From contig NZ_FSQZ01000001.1 in NCBI RefSeq assembly GCF_900129645.1, forward strand, positions 930,001 to 994,000: a stretch of DNA of 64,000 nt. Reading direction: 5' to 3'. Within the stretch, counting starts at the first letter, position 1. Every line of letters begins with the position of its first letter. The position numbers and the translations under genes were made by a program. The notes beneath the pieces are model-generated. The model worked only from the letters and a program-made list of their open reading frames with translations, did not search any database and was not told where the DNA came from. Origin of the DNA: Acetomicrobium flavidum. GTDB taxonomy: Bacteria; Synergistota; Synergistia; Synergistales; Acetomicrobiaceae. Shown here in pieces: positions 12,226 through 28,566 of the stretch.

Positions 12226-12290
12226 CATCACAAATATGGTTTAGCTTATTAAAATAGTTTTAAGTACAGGCTCGATGTACGGACAAAAAT

Positions 12291-12350: not shown

Positions 12351-13448
12351 TTACTCCTCCAAAAAAGCCCTCCCCAATGCATCGGCGCCAAGCATGGCAT
12401 TTACGACCATTTCCGGGGTCACTTTGAACGGCATGTTTGCCATGGTGGTGCCTTCCGCACAGGCAGCTTCAGCAGCCGGAAGCAGTTTCTCGTAACTTAC
12501 ATCCTTGAGCCCAAGCTGCTTTAGCGTCACCGGAAGGCCAATGGAGCATGCGAAATCCAGCACCTCATATATGGTGTCAGGATCTGCGTCCTGAAGCACC
12601 AACTGCGTCAACGTGCCAAAGGATACCTTCTCCCCATGGTAGAACTTATGAGTTTCTTCCAAGACCGTCAGGCCATCATGCACTGCATGAGCTGCGGCCA
12701 AACCGCTGCTTTCAAACCCCAAGCCGGAAAGCAGGGTATTGGCTTCGACGATCTTTTCCAATGCGGGAGTCACGGCGTGGGCTTCGCAGGCGATCTTGGC
12801 ATCCAAGCCGTATTCCAATAACAATTCGTAACAGAGTTTAGCCAAGGCCAGTGCTGCGGCAGTCCCCTCGCCTCCGGGCATGTTGGGGGCCTTCGTGAAG
12901 CTGCACGCTTCTGCCTCAAACCACGTAGCTAAGGCGTCTCCCATGCCGGATACGAGCAACCTGGTTGGAGCCTTAGCAATTATATTGGTATCCACCAACA
13001 CCAAATTGGGATTATGGGGAAGGACGAAATACCTTTCAAATACGCCTTCAGGTGTATAGATGACGGCCAGTGCACTGCAAGGAGCGTCCGTCGCCGCTAT
13101 GGTGGGTATTGAAGCCACCGGAACCTTCATGTACTCGGCAACGGCCTTGGCGGTGTCTAACGCCTTTCCTCCGCCGACGCCAACTATAACGTCAGCACCG
13201 CTTTGCTTGGCAATCGCCGTTAGCCTGTCGATTTCCTGGTCGCAGCATTCCCCGCCAAAGTTCTCTTCAAAATATTCTATGCCGTTTTCGGAAAAACTTT
13301 TCTTCATGGCATCCCTAACGGAATCCAGCCCTCGTTTTCCGCCAAGCACCAGTGCCTTTTTGCCAAGCAATGCTACGTGCTTTCCGACCTCGTTCATTGC
13401 CCCTGCCCCCTGGACATACCTGCCCGGGGCTATCATTATCCTGGTCAT
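12351..13448 (-). CDS. gldA: Glycerol dehydrogenase-type iron/zinc alcohol dehydrogenase (GldA-like), last gene of the BMC operon
   Basis: NAD-dependent group III alcohol dehydrogenase. It has GVGGGKALDTAKAVA (NAD site, GldA type), PTIAATDAPCSA, SGMGDALATWFEAEA and the metal-ligand helices SSGLAAAHAVHDGLT and FYHGEKVSFG with the expected Asp and two His ligands. Length 365 is typical of GldA. GldA interconverts glycerol/dihydroxyacetone and, promiscuously, 1,2-propanediol, acetol and lactaldehyde (known of the family). In Pdu loci this place is normally held by PduQ, a different Fe-ADH that recycles NADH by reducing propanal. Here GldA may replace it or feed diol to the dehydratase. No N-terminal encapsulation-type helix is visible. 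RBS GGAGG at 13455-13459. Confidence 0.88.
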   Translation of the reverse strand: MTRIMIAPGRYVQGAGAMNEVGKHVALLGKKALVLGGKRGLDSVRDAMKKSFSENGIEYFEENFGGECCDQEIDRLTAIAKQSGADVIVGVGGGKALDTAKAVAEYMKVPVASIPTIAATDAPCSALAVIYTPEGVFERYFVLPHNPNLVLVDTNIIAKAPTRLLVSGMGDALATWFEAEACSFTKAPNMPGGEGTAAALALAKLCYELLLEYGLDAKIACEAHAVTPALEKIVEANTLLSGLGFESSGLAAAHAVHDGLTVLEETHKFYHGEKVSFGTLTQLVLQDADPDTIYEVLDFACSIGLPVTLKQLGLKDVSYEKLLPAAEAACAEGTTMANMPFKVTPEMVVNAMLGADALGRAFLEE

Positions 13449-13477
13449 TCCAATTCCTCCTTATAAGTTTAAATAGG

Positions 13478-14026
13478 TTACAAAACTGCGCCCTTCAGGT
13501 CGGGATGGGGATTGGGGATAAAAGAGGTATCCACAAGCAAACCCTTGCTTGCGACCAGCTCTTTGGCGACCGTAAGGGCCGTCTTGACCTCAGAAATATC
13601 TCCTCCCATGGAGAAGAAGGACTTAGCCCCCATGCCCCTTCCCAACCTGATCTCTATCAAAACTACCTTAGCAGCCTTGGCAGCCGCATCTGCTGCCTCT
13701 ATGATGCAGGGAGCAGCCAACGCTTCTACCACGCCCAATGCTCCCATATCGCCCACCTCTGTAGTGCATGCCAGGGCAGGAAAGACGGAAGGGTGAACGT
13801 TTGGAAGCAGCATCTCGTCTGTCAACATCTCCTCCGCCACTTGCTTTCCTGCGTTTAAGGCGTTTTTGACGGCACCCACCTGTCCCCATACCACTATCAG
13901 GTATTTCCCGGGGCATATTGGCGAGGCATGAAACAGCTTCACGTTAGCTGCCTTAAGCATAGCGTCAACCGTCGCCACGCCCCTGGCTACGCTGATAAGC
14001 TCGAAAGTTCCTATAGCCCTTTCCAT
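13478..14026 (-). CDS. pduT: BMC-T shell protein PduT-like, predicted [4Fe-4S] pore
   Basis: Tandem BMC-domain protein of 182 residues forming a pseudo-hexameric trimer in the shell. Domain 1 begins AIGTFELISVARGVA, domain 2 ALGVVEALAAPCIIEAADAA. The Cys in SPICPGKYLIVVWG matches the PduT cysteine (SxxCPGKF in the family) that binds one [4Fe-4S] cluster at the three-fold axis, so electrons may cross the shell here. The ATG at 14026 is preferred because GGGGG lies 9 bases upstream; the ATG at 14035 is too close to it. The adjacent upstream gene is PduS, the flavin/Fe-S electron carrier thought to dock on PduT. Confidence 0.92.
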   Translation of the reverse strand: MERAIGTFELISVARGVATVDAMLKAANVKLFHASPICPGKYLIVVWGQVGAVKNALNAGKQVAEEMLTDEMLLPNVHPSVFPALACTTEVGDMGALGVVEALAAPCIIEAADAAAKAAKVVLIEIRLGRGMGAKSFFSMGGDISEVKTALTVAKELVASKGLLVDTSFIPNPHPDLKGAVL

Positions 14027-14039
14027 GGCAACCATCCCC

Positions 14040-15362
14040 CTACAGGCCTGAAGCCCTAATTGCAATATATTCCGAGGTTATCTCCTCGACCAAGCCGCTG
14101 ATGGAGGCATGGACGTTAGCTCCCAAGGCATTATCCGGCAGCTTGGCTATCAAATCTCCCTCCTGAACCTCATCATGCAACGACACGACGGGAATAGACG
14201 GGGCACCGGTATGTTGTTTAAGAGGTATCTTCACCCTTTCAGCCACAAACTCCCCGTTAAAGGGAGGATGTACGTCGTATGTGCCCAGACCCAGGCGCGA
14301 CATCAGCCTCTTGGTCGGGACCAACCTGAAGGGCCTTTCTGCTCTGGGATATATCGCCTTTTTCTCGAACTGTGGCTTTACCCCCTGTTGCCTCATTGCT
14401 CCCTTTATCACCTGATTTACCCGCCTTGGGGAAAGGTGCATGGGACATGCATAAAGGCCGCTGCACAAATTGCATTCTGAACAAAGCATGGCCGACTGGA
14501 CTATTTCAGGCAATCTCATGGATTCATAAGCCATGGCCTGCATAATCTTATGCGGGCGAAGGTCGTAGCCTATGAGATAGCGGGAACATACCATGGTGCA
14601 TTCGCTGCACTGACAGCATGCCACGCGAGCCTGCCTAAGCATTACGCTGACCGGCATGTTCTCGTACCTTGCAAAGGCAGAGTTTGATGGCAGTACCAAT
14701 ATGGCCTTTGTCATCTTGGTGACGGGGAAATTTGCATCTTTGTGATATTGCCCCATCATTGGACCACCGTCCACAAACACGGGCTCATCGACGGTCAGTC
14801 CCCCGGCAGCCTCGACCAACTTTGAGGCCTCCACTCCCAGGGGAACGCTCCATACGCCTGGAGAGAGGACCGCTCCTCCGACCTGGACGAAGCTATGAGT
14901 TACGGGTTTTCCCTCTAAAGCCCGACCTATATTGTAAAGCGTCTCTACGTTGTTTACGATGGCGCCCACATGGAGCGGCAAGCCGCCCTCAGGGACAATA
15001 CGGCCGACGCACTCGTGAAGGAGGATAACCTCATCTCCGGCCGGGTAGTAATCGCCTAAAACGCATACATCGCCTCCTGCAGCCTGCAAGGCGCTTATGC
15101 AGTCGCCATGTTTTTGTTTTACCCCAAAAACGACCTTACACCCCATGACAGACGATATGGCCTTAGATGCAGCTATCAGATAGGAGGCCCAATTTAACAT
15201 CAAGGTCTGATCTACGTAAAGGAGCGGCTCGCATTCAGCGCCGTTTATGACGTAGGTATCTATATCTGTAGCCTGAAGCTTCACATGGGTGGGGAATCCC
15301 GCTCCTCCAGCCCCCACAACACCTGCATGTCTTACAAGCTCTGTCAATTCATCCTTAGTCAT
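14040..15362 (-). CDS. pduS: PduS-like RnfC-type flavo/Fe-S cobalamin reductase of the microcompartment
   Basis: Electron-transfer protein of the BMC, related to RnfC and the NuoF fold. It would reduce cob(II)alamin for re-adenosylation by PduO or exchange electrons through PduT. N-terminal GVVGAGGAGFPTHVKLQ and INGAECEPLLYVDQ belong to the FMN/NADH-binding part. Two [4Fe-4S] motifs follow at about residues 255-310: CCQCSECTMVC and CSECNLCSGLYACP. A C-terminal barrel-sandwich/SLBB-like region ends it. Length 440 equals the usual 440-450. It starts 13 bases after the aldehyde dehydrogenase stop. Confidence 0.92.
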   Translation of the reverse strand: MTKDELTELVRHAGVVGAGGAGFPTHVKLQATDIDTYVINGAECEPLLYVDQTLMLNWASYLIAASKAISSVMGCKVVFGVKQKHGDCISALQAAGGDVCVLGDYYPAGDEVILLHECVGRIVPEGGLPLHVGAIVNNVETLYNIGRALEGKPVTHSFVQVGGAVLSPGVWSVPLGVEASKLVEAAGGLTVDEPVFVDGGPMMGQYHKDANFPVTKMTKAILVLPSNSAFARYENMPVSVMLRQARVACCQCSECTMVCSRYLIGYDLRPHKIMQAMAYESMRLPEIVQSAMLCSECNLCSGLYACPMHLSPRRVNQVIKGAMRQQGVKPQFEKKAIYPRAERPFRLVPTKRLMSRLGLGTYDVHPPFNGEFVAERVKIPLKQHTGAPSIPVVSLHDEVQEGDLIAKLPDNALGANVHASISGLVEEITSEYIAIRASGL

Positions 15363-15375
15363 AGGTTTCGCCTGC

Positions 15376-16764
15376 CTAAACTATGCGAAACGCTCCGTGA
15401 AGGACGCAACGGCGCAGCCTGCAGAAGGACAGCGGCGTAGTCGGGCCATCTCCGGTGGTCGTTCCTATGGTAAATGCCGTGGGGCAGTCGCCTCCAACGC
15501 CTATAGATGCAAATGAGGGTGCATTTTTGACGAACATCGACGTCTCCATCACCTTTGCCATGTCGCTCATGTTGTCTATGTTGGTGCTGTGGATTATGGC
15601 AGAATGCCTGAAGCCGTGTTCTACGCGCTTTGCCATGGCCAGTCCCTCTTTGAAGTCGGCAACCCTTACCATGGCAAGTATCGGCATCATGAGCTCTTCC
15701 TGGACGAAGGGATGTCTTTCGTCACATTCGACTAATATAAGCCGCACATTGGGAGGAGGGGTAATGCCCAACTTTTCCAGGTATACGCATGCATCCTTGC
15801 CAACCATATCCTTTTTTATTTTGTGATCCTTTGTCAACACCAGGTCGACCAAAGCGTCTATCTTCGATCGATCCTTTAATTCGTACGCCCCGTTATGGCA
15901 CATTAGATCTTTCAGCTCGTCGGCAATACAATTGACGGCTATCAGTTCCTTTTCCGCGATGCAGGGAAGGTTGTTGTCAAAGGAAGCACCTGCGATTACG
16001 TCCTTGGCAGCTTTTTCGAGATGCGCCGTCTCGTCGACCAAGACCGGAGGGTTGCCAGGACCCGCCCCTATGGCAGGCTTGCCTGAAGAAAGGGCAGCCC
16101 TTACCACTCCTGGTCCTCCTGTGGCCGATATCAGCTTAATGTCCGGATGGGACATTAACTCCTTTAAACTATCCAGCGACGCATCGCTTAACGTCGATAC
16201 CACCTCAACGGGAGCGCCTTCCTCGGCCAAAATGCCCCTGATGAGGTCGATGGTCTTAAAGGTACAGCGCAACGCTCCCGGATGAGGAGAGAACACCACT
16301 CCGTTCCCTCCCGACAGCATGCAGATCGTATTATTTATGACGGTTGCCACCGGATTGGTTGAGGGCGTTATCGAGGCTATGAGTCCAAAGGGAGCCAGCT
16401 CTTCCAGTATAAGGCCATTGTCGCCTGATATTGCCCTGGTAGTGAAGTATTCAGGCCCCGGCGTCTTGGTAATTGCAAGTTTCTTCTTTAATATTTTATC
16501 GTCTAGACGACCCATATTAGTATCGTCTCGCGCAATTTTGGCCAATTCCTCGGCATGGGGCAAGAGCTTTGATTTTAAGGCTGAAATTACCCTCGTTCGG
16601 CTTTCCAGGTTGAAATCCCACTGCCAGGCCCTCTGGGCTTTGACTGCAGCTTCAACGATCTGATTTACAGAGGTGGGAGGTTTTGCCTCTTCGCGAGCTA
16701 GCTCGCTGGCAACTCTTGCCACTATTTTTTTAACGAGATCATCGACTTCGATTGTCGTGTTCAT
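15376..16764 (-). CDS. pduP: CoA-acylating propionaldehyde dehydrogenase PduP
   Basis: Converts propanal (or 3-hydroxypropanal/acetaldehyde) + CoA + NAD to the acyl-CoA inside the compartment. The catalytic Cys is in [39 protein letters not shown] holds the nucleotide/CoA region. 462 residues, as in PduP (about 464). The N-terminal 18 residues [18 protein letters not shown] are a typical amphipathic encapsulation peptide that docks on shell proteins, joined by a Pro-rich linker to the catalytic domain. ATG at 16764 is chosen because GGAGGGG is 5 bases upstream. Downstream neighbour is PduS, upstream PduO. Confidence 0.93.
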
Positions 16765-16775
16765 GTAAACCCCTC

Positions 16776-17750
16776 CTAACTCTCCCACGCCTTTACCATG
16801 GCCTCCGCCACGATCGTGTCCTCTTTGACGGATCCTCCGCTTACCCCGACGGCTCCAACTATTTCTTCGCCATTTTTAAGCAACAAGCCGCCGCCAAATA
16901 CCACGAGCTCAGGGTCATTCTGAAGTCCGTACAATTCTTTACCCGGTTGCACCAATTCAGCCAAATTGCCCGTCGGCATCTTAAGTTTTATGGCGGTGGA
17001 AGCCTTCTTTGGGGCAAGGCCTAAGCTGACTTGAAGCACTCCCTCCATCCTTTCAAAAGCCACAGGAAGGCCGAAGGCATCACACACTGCCATCGCCATG
17101 GGGACGCCTATCTCGTTGGCTTTATTGCGCCCTGCATTCATCAGCTTACGCGCCACATCCGCATTTAAAGGTTTTGACCCCATATCCGCCTGTTGTCCCA
17201 TTTTTAACACCACCTTTTTTGTGACTCTGTTTATAACGCTTTCCCAATGTGCCGAGATAGCAAGAGCATATATATAATCAGAAAGGCGGTTCAAATACAT
17301 ATAAGTCTCGCTGTCTATTAAATTCAATTCCAAAGCCTGCAGCCCTGCCCTTTCCGCCCTCCTGGCAAAGGACCTTGCAAGGTGAAGCATCGAACTTACC
17401 TCGTCGTCACCCGGGAGCACGAACTGATTGAAAAAGGGATATTCGCTTATGAGGAGATCGATGCGTTTTTCCAGTTCCTGGGGTGAAGGTTTTTGCCTTT
17501 GGGCTTGCCCGCGCGCTATGTAAGCCATGACCAATATTAGCTCCGACTGAAGCTCACAAATCCAGCCTGAAACCTTAGGCGTGGCCTTAGATCGCGCAAT
17601 TCCCAAAGCGCAGGTCACCTCATCCAGCGTACCGTTTAAGACGATTCTCGGGTCATCCTTTCTCACCCGAGTGCCGTCGTATAAGGACGTTTCCCCCACA
17701 TCTCCCGTTTTGGTATATATCTTCACCATGGCACTTCTTTGGCCTCTCAC
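16776..17750 (-). CDS. pduO: PduO-type corrinoid adenosyltransferase fused to a GlcG/HbpS heme-binding-like domain
   Basis: Residues about 8-185 are the trimeric PduO adenosyltransferase (ATP:cob(I)alamin): KIYTKTGDVGETSLYDG, then LNGTLDEVTCALG and FARRAERAGLQALE. Residues about 200-320 are a GlcG/DUF336 domain: GVPMAMAVCDAFGLPVAFERMEG and VGAVGVSGG. The product is adenosylcobalamin for the dehydratase. The GTG at 17750 overlaps the PduN stop as GTGA; the internal ATG at 17729 (MVKIYTKTG) is the alternative and matches the family start better. Fits Salmonella PduO in domain order and length (about 336). Confidence 0.93.
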   Translation of the reverse strand: MRGQRSAMVKIYTKTGDVGETSLYDGTRVRKDDPRIVLNGTLDEVTCALGIARSKATPKVSGWICELQSELILVMAYIARGQAQRQKPSPQELEKRIDLLISEYPFFNQFVLPGDDEVSSMLHLARSFARRAERAGLQALELNLIDSETYMYLNRLSDYIYALAISAHWESVINRVTKKVVLKMGQQADMGSKPLNADVARKLMNAGRNKANEIGVPMAMAVCDAFGLPVAFERMEGVLQVSLGLAPKKASTAIKLKMPTGNLAELVQPGKELYGLQNDPELVVFGGGLLLKNGEEIVGAVGVSGGSVKEDTIVAEAMVKAWES

Positions 17751-18049
17751 ATGATCTCATCGGAGCATACGTCTACCGTATCGACAATGCCTACTATCGC
17801 AAAATCTATGGGGGCATCCGTTACACCGGCCGCATTCCTGGCCGAGCTGCCTGAACAAAGGAGGACTATCTCCCCAACTCCGGCACCCACAAGGTCAACC
17901 GATATCTCGACACGACCGTCACCCCGCGCGGACATGAGCCTTCCGTCCTTTCCAGGCTCTAGAAACTGCACTAACAGCAGTTTATGTCCTACTAACCTTT
18001 CATCCTTTCTAGTCGAGACAACTTGTCCTATGACTTTTCCAAGTTTCAT
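17747..18049 (-). CDS. pduN: BMC-P pentameric vertex protein (EutN/CcmL/PduN)
   Basis: 100-residue OB-fold vertex protein that caps the twelve corners of the shell. Family markers: MKLGKVIGQVVSTRKDERLVGHKLLLVQ, VDLVGAGVGEIVLLCSGSSARNA and DFAIVGIVDTVD. It overlaps the preceding BMC-like gene by ATGA and the pduO start by GTGA, so three genes are translationally chained. Only one vertex protein is visible in the locus. Confidence 0.95.
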   Translation of the reverse strand: MKLGKVIGQVVSTRKDERLVGHKLLLVQFLEPGKDGRLMSARGDGRVEISVDLVGAGVGEIVLLCSGSSARNAAGVTDAPIDFAIVGIVDTVDVCSDEIM

Positions 18050-18366
18050 TGTAATTTACCCCCACCTTTCAAGGCCTCCAAGGCCCTTTCCACTTCGGCA
18101 ACAGCCCCAACTATGGCAACGGCAGGCATATGTTGGGGGCAATTGCCCATGACTTCGAAGGCCTCCACGGAGGCTATATCGGTTGCAATGTCGACGGCTG
18201 CTATGGTCTGTGCCACCATTCCCTGCAATATCAGCACGGCTCCCCATTTAACGCTATCAAGCAGTTCTTGATCCTCCTTGGAGGAAATGCCCCTGCGTAT
18301 GCGATTTTTTATGATCCGCTTACAGGAAACGGACGGTGCAATTATGAGTTCCCACTGAAGGGCCAT
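18046..18366 (-). CDS. Divergent BMC-domain-like small protein, function unknown
   Basis: 106 residues. The second half resembles a BMC fold in pattern: a start like ILQGMVAQTIAAVDIATDIASVE mirrors the '[24 protein letters not shown]' helix, and AVAIVGAVAEVERALEALK mirrors '[19 protein letters not shown]'. The first 40 residues (WELIIAPSVSCKRIIKNRIRRG) are not BMC-like, and the usual 3' strand with VIPRPH is lacking, so it may be a circularly permuted or degenerate shell protein or an adaptor. It sits between the PduM-like gene and pduN with an ATGA overlap to the latter. Its place in the operon is certain; the fold is inference. Confidence 0.6.
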   Translation of the reverse strand: MALQWELIIAPSVSCKRIIKNRIRRGISSKEDQELLDSVKWGAVLILQGMVAQTIAAVDIATDIASVEAFEVMGNCPQHMPAVAIVGAVAEVERALEALKGGGKLQ

Positions 18367-18375
18367 GGATCCAAC

Positions 18376-19011
18376 CTACCTTTCGATCTTTATGCCAAGC
18401 GACCTCAATCTGTCCTCGGCTTCATCGGTCAAACGAGATCCATTTTTTAAGATCACCACACCAATGCCTGAGAGGCGGTCAGCTATCTCACACCAACTTA
18501 TCCAACCCTTTTCGTCTAACTCGAGGACACGGGAAGAGTTAGTCGATCCTATTTTTGAAATTACGATAAACCCCAAATTACAAAGCCTGGACGTAATTTC
18601 GTCGATCCTCTTAGGGTCTATTGTCCTTAGCCATCTTGTAATGCAGGTATCGTCAACTATCACGGGCAGTTGTTCGTCCAGACATCCGAAAACGAGAGAC
18701 CCTGCAGCGGTAAAGGGCAACCCCAAACACAGCTTAGAAACGAAATCAAGGGAAATGTTGGGTATGATCAGAGCCGATAACGTCTTTGCCTCACGATACG
18801 GATCGGTCAATGACTCGACAATATAGCAGGGGTTGTTGGCGTGATTAGACGATTTAGTGAAATCGCCTGACAAATAATGCACCCATGTCAGTTCCCCAGA
18901 TGGAGCCCACCGGAGGAAATCGTGATTGCCGGACGTCCAAAGTATGCCCACCCTGGGCATATGTAGCCTTTTAAGCACGATGTCGCATATATTATTTACC
19001 ATGGCCTCCAT
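18376..19011 (-). CDS. PduM-like microcompartment assembly protein (divergent, enlarged)
   Basis: 211 residues. It starts with a short amphipathic helix (MVNNICDIVLKRL) like the encapsulation helices elsewhere in the operon. It ends with WCEIADRLSGIGVVILKNGSRLTDEAEDRLRSL, resembling the C-terminal 'yrDVaaltrv...vvVrrktivTalA' region of PduM. PduM itself is about 163 residues, so this homologue is larger, with an unusual central part (HYLSGDFTKSS, GCLDEQLPVIVDD). PduM is needed for Pdu shell assembly in Salmonella (known); no catalytic motif is seen. ATG at 19011 has GGAGG 6-7 bases upstream and overlaps eutJ by 20 bases. Assignment to PduM is by position and end similarity only. Confidence 0.6.
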   Translation of the reverse strand: MEAMVNNICDIVLKRLHMPRVGILWTSGNHDFLRWAPSGELTWVHYLSGDFTKSSNHANNPCYIVESLTDPYREAKTLSALIIPNISLDFVSKLCLGLPFTAAGSLVFGCLDEQLPVIVDDTCITRWLRTIDPKRIDEITSRLCNLGFIVISKIGSTNSSRVLELDEKGWISWCEIADRLSGIGVVILKNGSRLTDEAEDRLRSLGIKIER

Positions 19012-19891
19012 GACAACGCCTCCACAGACATTCAGCGATACCCGAAGGAGTGACTACCATGGAATAGGGAGCCAAAACCGCTTCGCTTCCCATAGCTTGA
19101 GATATCGCCTCGGGAGCGCCCTCTATGTTGGCTCCGCCCCCAACGATAACTACAGGCACCTTTCCCAGGAAGCCGCTTTTGTCCAAATGATCTCTGGCAA
19201 TGACGCCCATCTTTTCGAACACGGGACGAATTATATTGAAAATCCTCCTGTGAGATTTGGTATCCCGCTTTAACCTTTCGGCTTCATCGAAGGATATGCC
19301 TAAAGCTCCAGCCAGGACCAACGTGACATGAGTGCCACCCGTTGGCTCGTCGGCAGAATATACCACCTCTCCCCCCTGGATGACGGCGATACCGGTAGTC
19401 CCGCCTCCTATGTCTACTATTGCGCCGTTTTCAATTCCCAGCGCAACGGAGGCAACTACAGGCTCCTCGTAAAGCCCCATGCAGGGAAATCCCAAAGCCT
19501 CAACTATGTTTGCGCACACTTGGGCCGTCCTCTGCGATATCCCCGGAGGATAGGCAGCTGCGCCCATGGCCGTAAAGTCAAGGTCGCCCAGGCGTCGCCT
19601 TAGGGTCTTTAGACACATTTCCATGCCCTCTATTGCAGCCATGTAGTCCACTATGACCCCGTCACGTATCGAGGAACGCGAATCGTTCAAGACCGCACTG
19701 ACAGGTTGTCCCGATTCGTTAAGGGCGACCAGTTTCATGTTGGTTGTTCCAAGATCAAATCCCAGATAAAGTTCATCCCAATCGGTCAATGGCCCGCCAA
19801 AGGTCAATGCCTTATCAATAGAGGCTAGCTTTTCCACCGTTTGTTCGCTGAGGACGTTGTTGATCGTAGCACCGCAAGTCTCAAAGCTCAT
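18992..19891 (-). CDS. eutJ: EutJ-like actin/Hsp70-fold protein of the microcompartment
   Basis: 299-residue protein of the Hsp70/actin ATPase superfamily: LYLGFDLGTTNMKLVALNE (phosphate 1), IGGGTTGIAVIQGGEVVYSAD (phosphate 2) and VVIVGGGANIEGAPEAIS (adenosine). EutJ has this length and these motifs; it is viewed as a chaperone in ethanolamine BMCs. Its presence in a Pdu-type dehydratase locus is a mixed Eut/Pdu composition. The start overlaps the pduL stop as ATGA. An N-terminal extension of about 40 residues (TINNVLSEQTVEKL) precedes the core. Confidence 0.9.
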   Translation of the reverse strand: MSFETCGATINNVLSEQTVEKLASIDKALTFGGPLTDWDELYLGFDLGTTNMKLVALNESGQPVSAVLNDSRSSIRDGVIVDYMAAIEGMEMCLKTLRRRLGDLDFTAMGAAAYPPGISQRTAQVCANIVEALGFPCMGLYEEPVVASVALGIENGAIVDIGGGTTGIAVIQGGEVVYSADEPTGGTHVTLVLAGALGISFDEAERLKRDTKSHRRIFNIIRPVFEKMGVIARDHLDKSGFLGKVPVVIVGGGANIEGAPEAISQAMGSEAVLAPYSMVVTPSGIAECLWRRCHGGHGK

Positions 19892-20526: not shown

Positions 20527-20561
20527 CGTCGTCACTTCCTCTTTTCAGCCGCAGGTATTCT

Positions 20562-21381: not shown

Positions 21382-21399
21382 ACCGGGGATCCCCCTTTC

Positions 21400-21846: not shown

Positions 21847-23678
21847 AAAATCTTCCTCCCAACGGTCGACAACACGAGGCCTGTTGCCACGGCGTTGCGC
21901 GGACCCAAGGTCCCCCTGATGTTGCCCCTACCAGCCACGACCGAATATTTCGACAGCTCCTCCGTTATCATGTTTGGAATTTCGAAATCCAAAGCCGAAC
22001 CGCCGACCAACACCACGAAGTCAATGAGGCGAATGTTCTGTGCCGGGGCAACGTGTTTCAAAGCTCTAGTCGCATTAGTCACGAAGACTTCCCTTTTTGC
22101 CTTTCTTCTGACGTCCCTTATTTTCTCAATCGAGGCATCGAGTAGAATTGGACTCAAAAAATCTTCGCTTATGATCAGAGCTACCCTGCCAAAGAGCTCG
22201 GGCGCCAAAGGTTTGTCGAAAAACCTTACCGTGCCGTCTTCAAGCCTTACGTGAAACACGCTTTCAACCTTGCAAAGGGGGTGCATCTTGATGTTTTCCA
22301 CCAGCTCCATGTCATCTAGCCCAAGCTCACTTGCTATTATCGTATTAACCATATTGCCCGCGCCGGCCAGGTGTATGAGCTCGACTTGTCCGTTGGGCCG
22401 CATCAGAGAGGCATCAGTGCTTCCCGCACCTAAGTCCAAGACGGCCAAGGGGGTGCTTGTGCCAGGGGTGGTCAAAGCACCCATTATGGCCATCTCGGCT
22501 TCAACCCCCCCTATTTCCGCCTTCACCCCTATTTCCGACTCTATGGCGGAAGCAAGCCTTTGCATGGGAAGCTCCTGAGCTTCAACCATAACCGCCAGAG
22601 CTACCCCATTTTCCATCGCAAACTCCTCAGCTAAACCCCCAACGACCCGCTGAGGGACCATGGTATCAACTGCCAGCAAGTCTTTAATATGTATCTCTCC
22701 CAAGGGGAGGCTAGTCAGTTCCGACATGGTCTTTCGGACTCTTTCCATCATTCCGCCCACATTTGTCCCCGGCTGCCCAAAGATATCCTGAATAGGCCAG
22801 CTGGATTCAACCATTTCCATTATGGCTTTTGCGCCTTCGTCGATATTTATGCTTCTTCTGCCTGTCGGACCAACAATGTAAAGCTCTCCGGCAGGAATTC
22901 GCCTTTCCTTTACTTCGCCTAGGGGGGTCCTTATGACGACCGCGGATCTGTTCCCTATAAGGGCCTTGGCGACGGGAACGATTTGGCGAGTCTCATCGGC
23001 AGATAAGCCAAAAATCGTGGCAATGTCGTAGGGATTGGAAAGCAACTCTACCGATCGTCCGGGAGGGGCAACTTCCACACAACATTGCATGCCCAATGGA
23101 ACGCGATCTATGGCTTTTACCTCATCGACTATTGGGATGACCTTGTTTAATCTGTTTGCTATCAATACTCCGTCATCCGATTGGCATATGGCTCCTCTCA
23201 CATCTATCCCCTTAGAAAAGGCATCGTTTATCATCTTGGCAGCTTCCTCAAAGCTCACGCTGCCTGGGATGACGACCACTACAGGATGATCGCGTTCAAC
23301 CTTATCCAAATCAAAGATCGATATCGTCTCTCCGACGCCTACGCCAACCCCTCCGGGGGTAGAGGGGTTGTGTCCTATCATGGTCGATTCAGTGATTATC
23401 GTCTCCGTAATGGTCTCCATCGCCACATCACCTATTACGGGGGCAGCCTTGTTCAAGCAGACCAGGTCAACCTTTTTAAAATCTTCCCGTGACCATCCGG
23501 CTTTTTCCAAGGCAAGGGACAATGCCCTGCGCACCCCGGTAATGTTTTGCAAGGTTCCCTTTATTCCCGTAGTATAGGCAATAGAAGAAGCAAGAAATTC
23601 CACTAAGCCCTTATCCACTCTTGCTAGGGCGACTTCGGTTGTGGCGTTTCCTATGTCAATGCCTGCAACGATAGGCAC
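21843..23678 (-). CDS. pduG: Diol/glycerol dehydratase reactivase large subunit PduG (DdrA)
   Basis: 611 residues, the exact size of DdrA. ATPase of the actin/Hsp70 superfamily: VAGIDIGNATTEVALARVD at the start, LAVLDLGAGSTDASLMRPNG in the middle and FVVLVGGSALDFEIP near the end. It exchanges modified coenzyme for intact adenosylcobalamin on the dehydratase. GTG start with GGGGG 7 bases upstream. Located immediately after the dehydratase small subunit, as in all Pdu operons. Confidence 0.96.
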   Translation of the reverse strand: MPIVAGIDIGNATTEVALARVDKGLVEFLASSIAYTTGIKGTLQNITGVRRALSLALEKAGWSREDFKKVDLVCLNKAAPVIGDVAMETITETIITESTMIGHNPSTPGGVGVGVGETISIFDLDKVERDHPVVVVIPGSVSFEEAAKMINDAFSKGIDVRGAICQSDDGVLIANRLNKVIPIVDEVKAIDRVPLGMQCCVEVAPPGRSVELLSNPYDIATIFGLSADETRQIVPVAKALIGNRSAVVIRTPLGEVKERRIPAGELYIVGPTGRRSINIDEGAKAIMEMVESSWPIQDIFGQPGTNVGGMMERVRKTMSELTSLPLGEIHIKDLLAVDTMVPQRVVGGLAEEFAMENGVALAVMVEAQELPMQRLASAIESEIGVKAEIGGVEAEMAIMGALTTPGTSTPLAVLDLGAGSTDASLMRPNGQVELIHLAGAGNMVNTIIASELGLDDMELVENIKMHPLCKVESVFHVRLEDGTVRFFDKPLAPELFGRVALIISEDFLSPILLDASIEKIRDVRRKAKREVFVTNATRALKHVAPAQNIRLIDFVVLVGGSALDFEIPNMITEELSKYSVVAGRGNIRGTLGPRNAVATGLVLSTVGRKIL

Positions 23679-23707
23679 CTAGACACCCCCTTTTTTCAAA
23701 CTTGTCG

Positions 23708-24250
23708 CTATTCGGGAACATCGCCTCTCAGGAGTTTTCGACGTTCATATACGGCCACAGCTTCTCTGACAAAGGTGGCACAGCTCTTTGCTCCATATTT
23801 GTTCTCAAGCTCATCGCCGATGGCCAGAAGCTCTTCCTTGGTCGAGCGATGGGGCCTCATGGCATTGTATATCTCCAAGATCCTTTCGTCCGGAACTTTA
23901 GTTAATTCAGCTGCTCTCTTTAAATTAAAAGCCATTTGCTTTCTACCTGCGGCTTCGGCTATCTGAGCCTGCATCAACAAGGCATCCGGATCAATACGAA
24001 AGTCTTCGAAGGTCGCCTTTCCTTCCATGACGGCATCCAGGGTAAGATCGTTAAAGGCATTACCCCTCGGGCTTTTTATAATCTCGGGCCTTTTCGAACC
24101 TAAGGGATAATCTTCAACGGTAAGACGGCCCTCTTGAGCTTGTCCTCTATAGGTTGCTTCAGCCTTTTTCTCGCCCTGCGGTTTTGCCATTTCCTTCAAG
24201 ACTTGCTTCACCAATTCGGCTATCATTTCCTCGTTAAGCTTTTCAGCCAA
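23708..24250 (-). CDS. pduE: Propanediol/glycerol dehydratase small subunit PduE
   Basis: Small subunit of the AdoCbl-dependent dehydratase, about 180 residues (PduE 173). Core: DYPLGSKRPEIIKSPRGNAFNDLTLD, family-invariant, and RAAELTKVPDERILEIYNAMRPHRST. The first 28 residues (LNEEMIAELVKQVLKEMAK) form an encapsulation-type helix followed by a linker. TTG at 24250 is chosen by analogy with pduC, whose initiation region is nearly identical (see the 28-base repeat); TTG at 24256 is also possible. Confidence 0.93.
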   Translation of the reverse strand: MAEKLNEEMIAELVKQVLKEMAKPQGEKKAEATYRGQAQEGRLTVEDYPLGSKRPEIIKSPRGNAFNDLTLDAVMEGKATFEDFRIDPDALLMQAQIAEAAGRKQMAFNLKRAAELTKVPDERILEIYNAMRPHRSTKEELLAIGDELENKYGAKSCATFVREAVAVYERRKLLRGDVPE

Positions 24251-24266
24251 TTTCAACGCCCCCTTT
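24239..24266 (-). repeat. 28-base translation-initiation repeat, copy at pduE
   Basis: Matches 26598-26625 at 27 of 28 positions. It covers the AAAGGGGGCG ribosome site, the TTG start and the first codons (Leu-Ala-Glu-Lys). The two copies sit at the starts of the small and large dehydratase subunits. The single difference turns the pduC TTTAAA into TTGAAA here, adding a second possible TTG start. Confidence 0.8.
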
Positions 24267-24925
24267 TATTCAAAACGGACTTCTAGCTCCATCGGTGGCT
24301 TGGAGCGATCCAAATAGCGCGCTTCTTTATTGTGAAGAAGCGCTGCAATCCCTTGATATCGAGGTCTGGCCATGGGATCATTTCTAGTCGGAACCGGAGT
24401 GGGGCGCTCTCCCTTGGCGTATTTGGCAGCATTACGTCCAATTGCCCTAAAGACCTCCGGATCAAGAAGGGGGGATTGAGGGAAGAGCTCCAAATTGTTC
24501 AGAGGATTCAAGTCACGTTGATGGATAACAGTTGTACCCCTAGACAGTATGCCAATACCAACGCCCGAACCGGACAGTTTGGCCGCTTGATGCGCTATGA
24601 ACCCAACGTCTGCAGTATGATATACGCGAACAAGCCTGGGCTTTAAGCCTTCCTCTTCGATCCCGGCAAATACCTGACGCAACACTTCACTGTGGGGTAC
24701 ACCGACTATAGTTTCCGTAAAGACGGTCCCAAAGGCAGGGGGTACGCCAACGACGACTTCCTTAGGATCGGTGCCTTTTTTAGCAACCCCCACCTCCACC
24801 AGGGTCATCTTTCCTCCCCTTTGGATCTGCGTGGCCGTCGGGGAAGACGATTTAGCCTGCTCTCCTAGGACTTCTTGCAGAACCTCTTCTATCACCTTTT
24901 TGACTAATTCTTCGTTGACCTGCAT
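24266..24925 (-). CDS. pduD: Propanediol/glycerol dehydratase medium subunit PduD
   Basis: 219 residues (PduD 224). Core segments: LVEVGVAKKGTDPKEVVVGVPPAFG, HSEVLRQVFAGIEEEGLKPRLVRVYHTADVGFIAH and GIGILSRGTTVIHQRDLNPLNNLELFPQ, all strongly conserved in B12 diol/glycerol dehydratases. It contributes to the cobalamin site. The N-terminal 20 residues (MQVNEELVKKVIEEVLQEVL) form the encapsulation peptide known from PduD. ATG at 24925 with AAGGAGGGG upstream; the longer frame start at 24946 lies inside pduC. Confidence 0.95.
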   Translation of the reverse strand: MQVNEELVKKVIEEVLQEVLGEQAKSSSPTATQIQRGGKMTLVEVGVAKKGTDPKEVVVGVPPAFGTVFTETIVGVPHSEVLRQVFAGIEEEGLKPRLVRVYHTADVGFIAHQAAKLSGSGVGIGILSRGTTVIHQRDLNPLNNLELFPQSPLLDPEVFRAIGRNAAKYAKGERPTPVPTRNDPMARPRYQGIAALLHNKEARYLDRSKPPMELEVRFE

Positions 24926-24938
24926 GGTCTTCCCCTCC

Positions 24939-26609
24939 TTACACATCCTCGGGCCTAATTGCCCAAGGAATGTTCTTTATCTCCTCCCAACGTTCGTCGG
25001 AGATCCTATAACCGGTCCCTGGACCTCGGTAATCGTTGGGATCATTGACGGAGCTATAAACAGTACCGTCACGATCTATCCAGGCCGAAGTCTGCAGATA
25101 ATCGCCGGAAACCCTTTGGCGCATCATCATGACTATCGCTTCGGCTATGTCCCTAAAACCTCTCTGCGCAAGGATCTTGGCTATATCAATGCCGTTTATG
25201 CCTTCGTTCAAGAGTCTCTCTGCGGCCCTTAAATCCTCAGTTACGTTTCTGTCGGGCACATCCTTGCTTCCGTTAGCATAGGTCGCAGCTTCCACCTCGG
25301 CGTCAGTTATGGGCGGGAACCCTAAAGCGTCATAAACGGCCTGAAGGGCTCTTACGGCTTTGTTGCGGACAGCGACTACCTCCTCTTCGGAGACGGGCTT
25401 GCAACCGCCATCAACCTTGAAGTCGCGCTGAATCGCCAGATAGTCGTCCATATCCTCAATATCCCAGTTGGATCCAGCAAACATGTTGTCGTAATTCGGA
25501 ACGCCGGAATAGCCGGAAAAGATCAGGTCTGTGCCTGAAAAGAGTTGAGGTATCGTACGAGCGGTTCGCCTTAGATCGGAATGAGAAAAGGTCTGGTCAT
25601 TGCCGGAAGCGACCTCCATATCAAGCGTGACGGTAATCAAGTTTTCCGCCGCAACGGCCCTCAAGCCGCTTGGAACAGCTCCCGGTACGCCTATGCAGGA
25701 AATTGAGCCGTTTTGAAGGCCCTGAACCCCGGCGCCCTTGGTGATCATGACGCATCTGGCTTCCAGGTAAAGCATGCTCTTGCCCTCTGCGGCCCCCATC
25801 TGTACTTCTGCCCCGGTGCCACTGGTAAAACGCATCTTCAAGCCCCTGCTCGCGTATGCGGAAGCAAGAAACGCCTTAGACCAGGGCGTGTCGTCGCCAT
25901 CAATGAATACGCTTTCGGTACCGTATACCGAGACCGTCTCCGCATAACTGGTAAGGCCTCTCATTCCGATCTGGAGCTCGAAGGCCTCCTCAAGAGCGCA
26001 CTGCGTAAGCACTCCGGGTCTGCCCGTTTGAGATCCTATAAGCAGAGACAAGGCATTCAAAGGGGCATAGCGATTTACGCCAACGGTGGTCTCGAGTTCC
26101 ACGAAGCCCCTTAACGCCCCCTCCGCTGCATCTGCGGCAAGCTGGACCGGGTGATCCTTTGCGCTGGTTATGTGGGCCTGATTGGCTGGAGTCTTACGAG
26201 ATCTCATCTTAGAAAGACCCATCATTATCTCAACAATGTTGAGGCAATCCATAACCCTGCTTATCTTGGCCGGAGTTAAGCCCTGGAAGACCCTCGTAAC
26301 TTCTGTCCTTGGAACGTTAGGATCGACAAGCATCATTGCCAGTTCTGTCTCGCTTTTCGCCATGGCCTGTGGGGCCATATCTATATCGATGGCATAATCC
26401 GCGATGAATTGTTCTATCATATCGAAATCCTGACGCTTCTTTCCGTCCATCTCCCCTATCTTGCCGTTTTCTATCTTTATGGACGGCACGGGATCGTTAG
26501 GACTTCCCATTGCAATAAGCCCCACATCTATCCATTCCGCTATGAAGCCGTCCTTATGGACCGGCCTATTATTTAGCACTTCAAATCTTTTGCTTTTCTT
26601 TTCAGCCAA
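24939..26609 (-). CDS. pduC: AdoCbl-dependent propanediol/glycerol dehydratase large subunit PduC
   Basis: Catalytic subunit converting 1,2-propanediol to propanal, or glycerol to 3-hydroxypropanal, by radical rearrangement. 556 residues (PduC 554). Conserved active-site stretches are present: NQAHITSAKDHPVQ, RGFVELETTVGVNRYAP, LTQCALEEAFEL, VQGLQNGSISCIGVP, SNDQTFSHSDLRRTA variant (GNDQTFSHSD) and FSGYSGVPNYDNMFAGSN. The substrate preference, diol versus glycerol, cannot be fixed by eye. TTG at 26609 is chosen: it follows AAAGGGGGCG and gives the family start AEKKSKRFEVLNNRPV; the ATG-like start at 26636 would lack a ribosome site. Confidence 0.96.
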   Translation of the reverse strand: MAEKKSKRFEVLNNRPVHKDGFIAEWIDVGLIAMGSPNDPVPSIKIENGKIGEMDGKKRQDFDMIEQFIADYAIDIDMAPQAMAKSETELAMMLVDPNVPRTEVTRVFQGLTPAKISRVMDCLNIVEIMMGLSKMRSRKTPANQAHITSAKDHPVQLAADAAEGALRGFVELETTVGVNRYAPLNALSLLIGSQTGRPGVLTQCALEEAFELQIGMRGLTSYAETVSVYGTESVFIDGDDTPWSKAFLASAYASRGLKMRFTSGTGAEVQMGAAEGKSMLYLEARCVMITKGAGVQGLQNGSISCIGVPGAVPSGLRAVAAENLITVTLDMEVASGNDQTFSHSDLRRTARTIPQLFSGTDLIFSGYSGVPNYDNMFAGSNWDIEDMDDYLAIQRDFKVDGGCKPVSEEEVVAVRNKAVRALQAVYDALGFPPITDAEVEAATYANGSKDVPDRNVTEDLRAAERLLNEGINGIDIAKILAQRGFRDIAEAIVMMMRQRVSGDYLQTSAWIDRDGTVYSSVNDPNDYRGPGTGYRISDERWEEIKNIPWAIRPEDV

Positions 26610-26625
26610 TTTAAACGCCCCCTTT
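26598..26625 (-). repeat. 28-base translation-initiation repeat, copy at pduC
   Basis: Second copy of the element at 24239-24266 (27/28 identity), spanning ribosome site, TTG start and first four codons of pduC. See findings. Confidence 0.8.
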
Positions 26626-26642
26626 AATCTCGGCAACCCTGC

Positions 26643-27467
26643 TTAAATGTAGGGAGTCGTAGCCGATTTGGGCTCAGCACCCATGGCACCCAGGAGCTTT
26701 TTGCCTATGCTTCTGGCGGCAATTAATGCCTGACGCACTGCGCCGGAATCCCCTGTAAAGGTTATGACCACTTCGTTCGTCAAAGATAGGCCCTTTGTGG
26801 GAGACAGGTAATCTATCAGCTCTACTTCAGCAGCTTTCAGTGCGGTATCGCTCATGACAAAGCCGATCCCCGCAGGAGCTCCTACGATGAGGCCAAATGC
26901 CCTGCCAACGGGGGCATTGAATGCCTTGTTGCATGCGTAGCTTGCTCGAGCCGTATACTGAAACTCCAAATGACCGGCATCGTTGGCATAAACATCGCCA
27001 AAGGTACGACGCAAATCCTTTAAAGCCACTTCTATTGCCCTTCTGGCATCGGATACGTCTTCCGCTCCAAAGATTATCAATGATCCGTGTCCGGCACCGC
27101 CCTTAGTATCCCTGGGAAGCTCGATGACAACTATCTCCGTGTTCGTCGCCTTAACGGCCTCATCTGCGGCCATTATCTGCGGCCCGGCCCCCGTCCTGCC
27201 GGAAAAGATCCCAACGGATCTGAATTTTTTGTCTATGCCCAGCTTTTCGTGAAGCATAGGCTCAACGTTGGCCACGACCAGGCCGATGGTATCGCCCTCG
27301 GAGATGCCGACGTATTCGGTGACGCCTACAATGTTTTGTGCGCACACACTGGCAACCTTTTCCTCATCGCTTTGCTGCTGGGAAGCCTTCTCGGGGGCTA
27401 CCACGCTGCCGCCACCGATACGCTTCATCACCTCATCCATTACTTTTTTCATCATCTCTTGTTCCAT
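26643..27467 (-). CDS. pduB: BMC-T trimeric shell protein PduB
   Basis: Tandem BMC-domain shell protein of 274 residues (PduB 270). Domain 1: VGVTEYVGISEGDTIGLVVANVEP; domain 2: PVGRAFGLIVGAPAGIGFVMSDTALKAAEVELIDYL and GDSGAVRQALIAAR. The N-terminal extension (MEQEMMKKVMDEVMKRIGG) is the helix that in Salmonella PduB links the shell to the enzyme core. ATG at 27467 has GGAGGTG about 8 bases upstream. It lies between a PduA/J gene and the dehydratase, the canonical order. Confidence 0.95.
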   Translation of the reverse strand: MEQEMMKKVMDEVMKRIGGGSVVAPEKASQQQSDEEKVASVCAQNIVGVTEYVGISEGDTIGLVVANVEPMLHEKLGIDKKFRSVGIFSGRTGAGPQIMAADEAVKATNTEIVVIELPRDTKGGAGHGSLIIFGAEDVSDARRAIEVALKDLRRTFGDVYANDAGHLEFQYTARASYACNKAFNAPVGRAFGLIVGAPAGIGFVMSDTALKAAEVELIDYLSPTKGLSLTNEVVITFTGDSGAVRQALIAARSIGKKLLGAMGAEPKSATTPYI

Positions 27468-27495
27468 CAATCACACCTCCCGAAAAAGGGTGCCG

Positions 27496-27774
27496 CTATT
27501 CCAGCTTAGGAAGCAGCTTCTCTGTGTCGCTGTGGGGCCTGGGGATCACGTGTACGGAGACTATTTCGCCCACTCGCTTTGCCGATGCGGCGCCTGCATC
27601 AACGGCAGCCTTAACGGCTCCAACATCACCGCGAACCATCACGGTCACTAGTCCCGAGCCTATTTTCTCGTAACCTATAAGCCGAACATTTGCCGCTTTC
27701 ACCATCGCATCCGCCGCTTCTATCGCTCCAACTAAGCCTTTTGTTTCGATCATCCCTAACGCTTCACCAGTCAC
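27496..27774 (-). CDS. pduA: BMC-H hexameric shell protein (PduA/J paralogue 1, canonical pore)
   Basis: 92-residue single BMC domain: [44 protein letters not shown] and [16 protein letters not shown]. The pore loop KIGSGL is the one of PduA/PduJ, whose serine-lined pore passes 1,2-propanediol (known). GTG at 27774 chosen because GGAGGTG lies upstream in the end of pduV. It is a near-twin of the gene at 20562, which differs at the pore. Confidence 0.94.
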
Positions 27775-27778
27775 GGTT

Positions 27779-28222
27779 CTACACACCTCCTGCTAAGCTT
27801 GCGATTTTGTGCCTTAGTTCCATTATCCCCTCTCCTGTCAGTGCCGAGACACAGACCACCTCCTTAACCCCTGTTTCCTGCAGTATTCTTTTCGCCCTAT
27901 TTATCTGCTCTTCGCTCGATAAATCTATCTTGTTGATCACCCCTATAACTGTGGATCTGAGGGCCTTCACGAAACGAGAGGGAAACTGCTTTAAATTTGT
28001 GGGGTCAACCAAAAGAAGGATCATTGCAGACCTGGAAGAATAAGTTATTAACGCATGATAAAAGCGGGGCAGATCGAAAAATTCCCCCGGGGTATCGATG
28101 GCTTTCCCAAAGAACTGAATGAAAGAGGTCTTACGAACGGAGCTCTCATCATTGGTTAACCCTAACGTTTTCAGCAACGTCGTCTTACCGGATCCAGATG
28201 GGCCTATGACCATGATGCGCAT
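27779..28222 (-). CDS. pduV: PduV/EutP-type small GTPase
   Basis: 147-residue Ras-like GTPase: P-loop [21 protein letters not shown] (switch II, G3) and NKIDLSS (G4), SALTGEG (G5). PduV is about 150 residues and associates with the outside of Pdu compartments (known), possibly with filaments; EutP has been reported to have acetate kinase activity, relevant because no PduW kinase is in this locus. ATG at 28222 overlaps the pduU stop (TGATG). The longer frame to 28333 lies inside pduU and is not needed. Confidence 0.92.
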
Positions 28223-28566
28223 CACGTAAAGGTAACGTCCGTCGGGAAAAACCCCAGGACCTCTTTCAAGGAATTGACGGCTGTACGAAGGGCATTTTCC
28301 ACGGAGGCAACTTCGCCTGTGAGCATTACGCAACCGGTAAACCTGTCGACGAACTCTATGTTTACGCTGGAGGACTTGCTTGCCATGTCGGCTGCGATAA
28401 TCGCGCCCTCACCCGGAGTAATTGTCATGATCCCTATTGCTCCGGCTCTATCGATGCCAACCTTATTGCACAGCTCTCCTTTGGGATTTCTTATTATGTG
28501 AGCAAGGGTCACCTGTTTGCCGGGAACGTATTCCTGTATCACCCTTAAACGATCGCTTCCGTCCAC
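28222..28566 (-). CDS. pduU: Permuted BMC-H shell protein PduU (EutS-like), first gene of the BMC operon
   Basis: 114 residues. Circularly permuted BMC domain: RVIQEYVPGKQVTLAHIIRNPKGEL, GAIGIMTITPGEGAIIAADMA and FVDRFTGCVMLTGEVASVENAL. The N-terminal beta-barrel sequence typical of PduU is present. GTG at 28566 chosen: GGGGG lies 7 bases upstream and the resulting length matches PduU (116); the upstream in-frame residues (MQRHRFFVLL...) lack a ribosome site. Promoter must lie in 28567-28670; no good -35/-10 pair was seen, as expected if an AraC-type activator is required. Confidence 0.93.
   Translation of the reverse strand: MDGSDRLRVIQEYVPGKQVTLAHIIRNPKGELCNKVGIDRAGAIGIMTITPGEGAIIAADMASKSSSVNIEFVDRFTGCVMLTGEVASVENALRTAVNSLKEVLGFFPTDVTFT

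Follow-up and report, generated by a model that had tools for sequence, protein, structure and literature searches.

Introduction

Several described systems come close to the locus analysed here, a B12-dependent Pdu microcompartment operon in a 64,000-nucleotide stretch of the Acetomicrobium flavidum genome (contig NZ_FSQZ01000001.1, forward-strand positions 930,001 to 994,000; this whole stretch is called the window, and coordinates are numbered within it). PDU1D loci are marked, in the accessible part of the original description, by a two-component system with a PocR domain (Axen 2014, PMC4207490); these loci (Axen 2014; Sutter 2021) and the window are alike in the B12 diol dehydratase, the shell genes and the PocR-domain kinase of the two-component system. 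The Pdu cluster of Acetomicrobium (Anaerobaculum) hydrogeniformans, a sister species, has already been published as a Pdu bacterial microcompartment (BMC; PMC6620236, accessible in part), and its GldA is 98% identical to that of the window. According to the accessible portion of PMC10536098, the pdu cluster of Halanaerobium polyolivorans resembles the window in having eutJ and in being without pduQ and pduW; it is reported there without pduL, and gldA is not described as a cluster member. The Pdu operon of E. coli strain K_EC180 (L179) shares with the window homologues of PduA, B, C, D, E, G, H, J, K, L, M, N, O, P, S, T, U and V. The dha regulon of E. coli AW1.7 (L178) holds GldA-type dehydrogenases, DhaKLM and a B12 dehydratase in one regulon without shell genes; GldA-type glycerol dehydrogenases, B12 dehydratase, reactivase and a MIP channel are common to it and the window, whereas DhaT and DhaKLM, which belong to the E. 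coli cluster, are encoded elsewhere in the A. flavidum genome (the former as a DhaT-like alcohol dehydrogenase, ADH). GrpU shell proteins, defined by the pore motif G-X-C-P-Q-N/H (PMC6325248), are described in the accessible part of the same source as almost exclusive to glycyl-radical compartments, and the A. woodii GrpU gene is placed outside BMC loci, next to a corrinoid biosynthesis gene, in what is accessible of PMC7593272.

The window differs from the PDU1D loci by a GrpU gene inside the operon and a terminal gldA, features that may already be recorded in locus tables. Compared with E. coli K_EC180, it places PduU and PduV first, has no PduQ, carries EutJ, GrpU and GldA in addition, and has a flavoprotein-fold relative in the place of PduM and a two-component regulator in the place of PocR. 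The operon is a Pdu compartment of known kind with a modified redox set. We favour, with moderate confidence, the reading that this is a B12-dependent propanediol/glycerol compartment in which GldA would form a glycerol/diol module in the cytosol and electron export would take over from PduQ.

Organization of the operon

The operon comprises 21 open reading frames (ORFs) on the minus strand, from 28620 down to 12351, in the order U V A B C D E G H K J L EutJ M GrpU N O P S T GldA and with intergenic spacing of -29 to +29 bp. Every ORF can be assigned to a named gene, the PduM-slot protein and the small shell protein at 18046-18366 by profile comparison only. The features are as follows.

28671..28704, minus strand: intrinsic terminator between the response regulator gene and PduU (14-bp perfect stem, T tract)
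28222..28620, minus strand: PduU/EutS-type permuted BMC-H shell protein, first gene (NF012012 118.9 bits, cut-off 123 just missed; true start may be slightly internal)
27779..28222, minus strand: PduV/EutP GTPase-like protein (PF10662 E 4e-34; start 28333 overlaps PduU, ATG 28222 likelier)
27496..27786, minus strand: PduA-type BMC-H shell protein (NF012018 132 bits, cut-off 133)
26643..27470, minus strand: PduB trimeric shell protein (NF011944 423.9 bits)
24939..26636, minus strand: PduC, B12 diol/glycerol dehydratase large subunit (NF011979 963 bits)
24266..24946, minus strand: PduD, medium subunit, N-terminal encapsulation-type helix (NF011616 319 bits)
23708..24256, minus strand: PduE, small subunit, N-terminal encapsulation-type helix (NF011972 232 bits)
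21843..23678, minus strand: PduG, reactivase large subunit (TIGR04491 962 bits)
21400..21846, minus strand: PduH, reactivase small subunit (PF02288 E 1e-26)
20848..21381, minus strand: PduK-like BMC-H protein with C-terminal extension (PF00936 E 7e-23)
20562..20876, minus strand: PduJ-like BMC-H protein (NF012018 123 bits, cut-off 133)
19888..20535, minus strand: PduL phosphotransacylase, N-terminal encapsulation-type helix (NF011652 231.6 bits)
18992..19891, minus strand: EutJ, actin-fold protein (NF011660 257 bits, cut-off 182; PDB 3h1q E 1e-55)
18376..19011, minus strand: PduM-slot protein, by profile and model a diverged flavoprotein-type PduM with UbiX/HFCD-like predicted fold, flavin motif apparently lost (hhalign 97%; Foldseek)
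18046..18366, minus strand: GrpU-type shell protein, GNCPQH pore motif, predicted Fe-S site (hmmsearch 4olp 4e-19, 4olo 1.5e-16; AlphaFold2 model with Foldseek)
17747..18049, minus strand: PduN pentameric vertex protein (NF053795 86 bits, cut-off 125; NF011992 65.6, cut-off 118)
16776..17750, minus strand: PduO cob(I)alamin adenosyltransferase (TIGR00636 128 bits, cut-off 108)
15376..16788, minus strand: PduP CoA-acylating aldehyde dehydrogenase, N-terminal encapsulation-type helix (NF011927 588 bits)
14040..15362, minus strand: PduS, RnfC-like FMN/4Fe-4S oxidoreductase (PF01512, PF13534, PF10531, PF13375)
13478..14065, minus strand: PduT, trimeric shell protein, CPGKY stretch as in solved relatives (PDB 3nwg 3e-46, PduT 3n79 1e-42)
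12351..13448, minus strand: GldA, glycerol dehydrogenase, last gene (NF006941 539.6 bits, cut-off 336; PDB glycerol dehydrogenase 2e-126)
12284..12322, minus strand: intrinsic terminator after GldA (9-bp perfect GC-rich stem, then ATTTTTG)

A script scan of the minus strand from 12201 to 28800 (perfect stem of at least 8 bp, loop of at most 16, T tract) recovers just two intrinsic terminators, before PduU and after GldA; the hairpin on the GldA side, whose loop exceeds the limit of a first scan, was located by this script. As the two flank the 21 genes, gldA is the final gene of one unit and an operon member by position. A simple consensus search upstream of PduU gave no promoter, and a B12 riboswitch was rejected, no Rfam family reaching its gathering score anywhere in the window.

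The content observed is that of a B12-dependent Pdu compartment: PduCDE dehydratase and PduGH reactivase are present, as are the core enzymes PduP and PduL, and all nine BMC-domain matches of the 2.02-Mb genome (E 0.001) fall inside this operon. The gene assignments confirm this much of an earlier note on this DNA, which had described a complete B12-dependent Pdu operon without PduQ, PduW and PduX that ends in a GldA-type dehydrogenase; the terminator lies directly beyond that gene. With every ORF already assigned to another gene, the operon has no PduW and no PduX (PduX was searched for within the operon only), and the acetate kinase family genes of the genome all lie outside the window. The window holds no member of the iron-dependent ADH (Fe-ADH) family besides GldA, so there is no PduQ in the locus.

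GldA and its linkage to Pdu loci

GldA scores above the cut-off of the glycerol dehydrogenase model, and its alignment with solved glycerol dehydrogenases covers the full length (5zxl, 1-365). Identity amounts to 53% with the glycerol dehydrogenase of the E. coli dha regulon, to about 24% with E. coli PduQ (over 227 aa) and to 23% with DhaT; by sequence GldA lies outside the PduQ/DhaT group of Fe-ADHs. It is the sole gene of its type in the genome at E 1e-40. The Fe-ADH family has three further members there (L001, L002 and L003), of which L001 is DhaT-like (41% identical to DhaT), and one of these might serve the compartment as a PduQ/DhaT-type enzyme, GldA then being a glycerol gene unconnected with it that happens to stand at the end of the operon. 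We consider this quite unlikely, given that L001 lies about 0.9 Mb and L002 0.18 Mb from the operon, that L003 is on a separate short contig, that the BMC-domain matches are confined to the operon, and that GldA follows PduT in other genomes as well.

Among 185 Synergistota genomes, 31 carry pduC; at least 13 of these, from six genera, have GldA downstream of PduT (G000, G012, G014, G015, G016, G017, G090, G092, G105, G106, G108, G179 and G180). Between PduT and GldA stand a MIP gene in G105, a PduL-like gene in G092, and a PduL-like gene with a DhaT-type ADH in G090. The 13 are a lower bound, and the label 'not linked' is doubtful for G055, on whose 3.8-kb contig (L153) GldA adjoins a PduS-like fragment, perhaps as a fourteenth Pdu-linked GldA with a different gene order. 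On a GldA tree of 33 of the 61 Synergistota matches (all 30 with loci and three more; the duplicate locus L165 was dropped) and two E. coli sequences, the linked state requires five changes, of which well-supported branches force at least three; shuffled states require 10.7. In the class of Propionispora, which we take to be Negativicutes, 49 of 380 genomes have pduC above the cut-off. GldA lies within about 15 kb of it in three of the 49: G514 has the same locus end, PduT and then GldA (L216), and in G202 and G520 GldA sits upstream of the kinase gene, the G202 frame containing a stop. The presence of linked GldA in six Synergistota genera and in genomes of another class argues that the linkage is recurrent and not accidental.

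Where both sides of a Synergistota locus were at least partly readable, a DhaT/PduQ-type ADH was found nearby in one of 11 loci with GldA and in seven of nine without. This alternation gives a Fisher p of 0.005 by genome and 0.10 by genus and is therefore a tendency only. Loci were assigned to this table by hand from the locus map; G001, G023, G055, G145, G105, G180, G152, G067, G151, G153 and G159 were excluded from the two-flank test (contig end or short flank), and the flanks are unequal, being short on one side in G139, G163 and G090.

Some individual loci deserve mention. In G015, of the same genus, a second, diverged pduCDE set (L046:3650-6480; 59/56/44% identical to that of the window) stands between GldA and an NAD-kinase-like gene. 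PduL is present in 13 of 13 GldA-bearing loci, and the read part of loci without GldA, for example G020, G021, G022, G121 and G139, gave no PduL match. L044 (G163) and L045 (G134) represent a different Pdu type with a DhaT-type ADH, a flavoprotein-type PduM and EutJ, with no GrpU found, and look separately acquired. In L075 (G036, Fretibacterium), PduV, PduG and EutJ are fragmented and PduD, PduE and PduH gave no match; the locus may be decaying or may contain sequencing errors.

Targeting helices

The earlier note had described an N-terminal amphipathic helix, [E/D]xLVxxVLxxL, shared by PduP, PduD, PduE, PduL and the PduM-like protein and missing from GldA. As written, the motif occurs in none of the 21 operon proteins; four of them, PduP, PduL, PduE and PduD, carry a relaxed form at the N-terminus, which PduM and GldA lack. 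Helical moments discriminate cargo from other proteins badly (PduU, PduC and PduA also reach 0.57-0.66), and the motif alone was therefore relied on. The C-terminus of PduH (21400-21846) is amphipathic (residues 132-146) and similar to an encapsulation peptide.

The proposal that GldA acts outside the lumen fits with its want of a targeting-type motif, a weak argument since the Pdu alcohol dehydrogenase, in the accessible part of PMC6325248, has no targeting helix of its own either and is believed to be taken in attached to the aldehyde dehydrogenase. By the same route GldA could be a true luminal substitute for PduQ, imported bound to another cargo protein, reducing propanal or 3-hydroxypropanal and recycling NAD+; its last position in a PduQ-less Pdu operon and the tendency of DhaT-type ADHs to be near where GldA is absent would agree with this. 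Its place in the glycerol dehydrogenase family, the low identity to PduQ and DhaT, and the one locus (G090) that holds both GldA and a DhaT-type ADH speak against such a role, which we regard as very improbable. From homology and linkage, the best reading is that GldA is a cytosolic glycerol or diol module and not a substitute for PduQ.

Glycerol context and the supply of lactaldehyde

In the same genome, dhaK, dhaL, dhaM and glpK are grouped about 0.5 Mb from the operon (DhaK at about 1.44 Mb, the window at 0.93-0.99 Mb; dhaL, dhaM and glpK, unlike DhaK, were named by reading the sequence), so GldA, DhaK and dehydratase do not form the single cluster of a dha regulon. The dhaKLM-glpK genes and a MIP channel adjoin the pdu locus in at least four of the 31 pduC-bearing Synergistota genomes (G139, G151, G154 and G159), a lower bound as some contigs end early. 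The window itself has a MIP gene at 37037-37831.

GldA might instead supply the compartment with substrate, reducing acetol, methylglyoxal-derived products or lactaldehyde in the cytosol to 1,2-propanediol that then enters the shell. Its second-best NCBIfam match is the bifunctional L-1,2-propanediol/glycerol dehydrogenase equivalog NF047954 (486.6 bits, missing the cut-off of 700), and on the same strand a FucA-type aldolase is encoded upstream (31763-32407). Two sister genomes, L181 and L182, have three genes between FucA and the histidine kinase gene, one of the FGGY kinase type (25% identical to GlpK) and the others dehydrogenase-like and peptidase-like (both identified by eye); the window has lost all three, and only an apparent degenerate start of the dehydrogenase-like gene is left. 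This loss weakens the lactaldehyde supply that had been considered for GldA, and A. mobile does not use rhamnose (PMC3739175, accessible in part). A supplier role for GldA is accordingly held to be unlikely, and the cytosolic glycerol or diol module is preferred. FucA was rejected as the operon's own lactaldehyde source, on account of the 191-bp gap and the decayed sugar module. The stretch 31572-33060, with FucA and fragments upstream of the kinase gene, looks like such a module, longer in L181 and L182.

A GrpU-type shell protein in a B12-dependent Pdu operon

The ORF at 18046-18366, overlooked by the earlier note, gives only a weak BMC match in a Pfam scan, and profile search (hmmsearch) connects it with both solved GrpU proteins, 4olp and 4olo. 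Its AlphaFold2 model (mean predicted local distance difference test, pLDDT, 93) has these two as best Foldseek matches (E 1e-4, probability 1.00); as modelled, the protein has the GrpU fold. Its motif, GNCPQH, fits the published pore motif. GNCPQ is kept in all 23 other Synergistota homologues, followed by H or N in 19 and by Q in four, and is invariant in a 19-row alignment of the window protein with 18 of the 23. A hypothetical or spurious ORF was rejected, the protein being conserved and GrpU-like in profile and structure. We infer that the pore is a predicted Fe-S cluster site.

Pore motif, predicted fold and length are shared with the GrpU proteins of glycyl-radical microcompartments; the window copy lies instead inside a B12-dependent Pdu operon, between PduM and PduN. 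The operon contains no glycyl-radical enzyme, the usual context of GrpU: its signature enzyme is PduCDE, and all ORFs belong to other families. The microcompartment literature examined, as far as accessible, reports no GrpU from a B12 Pdu operon; supplementary locus catalogues may hold an earlier record.

Among the Synergistota Pdu loci, GrpU is found in 25 of the 27 that could be assessed for it and for EutJ (G001, G023, G055 and G145 were excluded, as the contig stops before that part). G134 and G163, which lack it, belong to the other Pdu type with a DhaT-type ADH, and a profile search of these loci and their flanks gave weak PduT matches only and no GxCPQ motif. In the Propionispora class, 14 of the 49 pduC genomes have GrpU anywhere, and two (G515 and G518) have it less than 20 kb from pduC, the G515 copy lying on the opposite strand upstream of the kinase gene; GrpU is thus not universal in Pdu loci. 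It follows PduT in the Pdu loci L111, L120, L121 and L123 and on the short contig L122, all chosen because they contain GrpU, so that no frequency can be derived from them. In L102, L103, L108, L112-L114 and L116-L119, GrpU genes were seen with no shell gene nearby by tblastn with the operon proteins, some of these stretches being short.

The PduM slot

The protein at 18376-19011 has no Pfam or NCBIfam match at E 0.001 and no match to PF15953 up to E 10. In other Pdu loci the same slot encodes proteins with a PF02441 flavoprotein domain and a weak PduM-like PF15953 tail; five of these score 14.7-27.3 bits against PF15953, one of them above the cut-off of 27. Aligned by hhalign with the profile of these flavoprotein-type PduMs, the window protein matches over its full length (97%, E 8e-11), which bears out the PduM-like protein that had been expected in this slot; its direct comparison with a single E. 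coli PduM (E 0.043, probability 1.2%) is not convincing. The structural model (pLDDT 84, predicted TM-score, pTM, 0.64) retrieves UbiX/HFCD flavin enzymes with Foldseek (best E 4e-4), with TM-scores for the first six matches of 0.44-0.50 when scaled to the query length and 0.48-0.62 when scaled to that of the target. In the alignments, the LTxNTAAK stretch, presumably the flavin site, is kept by the flavoprotein-type PduMs and is not conserved in the window group. On profile and model, the slot protein is judged to be a diverged flavoprotein-fold PduM, most likely a scaffold that lost flavin mononucleotide (FMN). A literature search found no paper on PduM as a flavoprotein in a microcompartment context. 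L106, a deltaproteobacterial locus with GrpU and a glycyl-radical enzyme, encodes a PduM-like protein of very small size, about 110 aa, which matches PF15953 at no better than E 0.06.

Regulator, locus type and EutJ

Two genes lie upstream of the operon, ahead of its first terminator.

28759..30357, minus strand: response regulator with AraC output domain (NCBIfam receiver and AraC-domain matches)
30363..31571, minus strand: histidine kinase with PocR sensory domain (PF10114 E 1.5e-43, PF06580)

The PocR-model match of the response regulator is confined to its AraC part, and the window thus shows the PDU1D trait, a PocR-domain kinase of a two-component system and no AraC regulator with a PocR domain. 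By this regulator trait the operon would belong to the PocR-two-component, PDU1D-like kind. The earlier note had allowed for near-identical loci already typed as a standard Pdu subtype with GldA in the same role; the listed A. hydrogeniformans cluster (PMC6620236) and the PDU1D regulator match (PMC4207490) go part of the way in that direction.

EutJ passes its curated cut-off and is absent from the E. coli pdu operon examined. Its gene is present in 25 of the 27 assessable Synergistota loci (absent from G152 and G153; split into two pieces in G036) and in the Bacillota Pdu loci L111, L121 and L123. As EutJ is the rule in Synergistota Pdu loci and is in print elsewhere, in the H. polyolivorans cluster (PMC10536098, accessible in part), the mixed Pdu/Eut composition claimed earlier falls, and EutJ was rejected as the mark of a Pdu/Eut hybrid.

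Outside these subjects, the window encodes at 8551-10416 a radical SAM C-methyltransferase of the type found with ribosomally synthesized and post-translationally modified peptides (TIGR03975, 505 bits), between GcvPA (glycine cleavage) and a TIGR01440 protein.

A possible route for electrons

In the reading favoured here, PduCDE would form the aldehyde within the shell, PduP and PduL would convert it to the acyl-phosphate, and the acid would be made outside by a housekeeping acetate kinase. With no PduQ, internal recycling of NAD+ would be missing, and the NADH of PduP would have to exit or find another use. GldA, which we infer to be cytosolic, would turn glycerol into dihydroxyacetone for DhaKLM (the oxidative branch) or interconvert a diol and a hydroxyketone, and one regulon would thereby cover glycerol and 1,2-propanediol. 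PduS and two shell proteins, one resembling the Fe-S protein PduT and the other bearing the GrpU pore motif, could let electrons cross the shell and reach acceptors in the cytosol (in this genus, H2). Because GrpU, PduT and PduS are present and PduQ is absent, such export through an Fe-S shell appears the likeliest replacement for PduQ.

Several points weigh against this reading. The case is built from sequence, and homology leaves the substrate of GldA open, the enzyme falling short of the stricter bifunctional equivalog cut-off (486.6 against 700). The alternation of GldA and DhaT is not significant by genus, and the DhaT-like L001 could serve the compartment from elsewhere in the genome. 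GrpU also occurs in loci with a DhaT-type ADH near (G020, G021, G022, G036, G090 and G139) and is therefore no simple replacement for PduQ. The link to glycerol is indirect: DhaKLM lies about 0.5 Mb away in this genome, and the dhaKLM-linked loci and the GldA-bearing loci belong to different genomes. The PDU1D typing, too, stands on the regulator trait.

Implications

How catabolic compartments balance their redox reactions is an open problem, with a private NAD+ cycle through PduQ on one side and electron export via Fe-S shell proteins on the other; a PduQ-less Pdu operon with PduS, PduT and GrpU in an H2-making genus makes the two models distinguishable in one organism. A broader idea, which we offer as speculation and hold to be doubtful, is that the B12 Pdu compartments of Synergistota and of a few Bacillota have swapped the sealed NAD+ cycle for an electrically open shell, in which electrons would pass from the NADH of PduP to PduS, through PduT and GrpU to cytosolic acceptors and on to H2, and GldA or DhaT, encoded at the locus edge, would be a swappable cytosolic module that sets polyol and product. 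The locus also extends the range of GrpU past glycyl-radical compartments and suggests that PduM-slot proteins may derive from a flavoprotein fold. For the typing of Pdu loci, it offers an improved rule, namely to weigh the redox set besides the signature enzyme.

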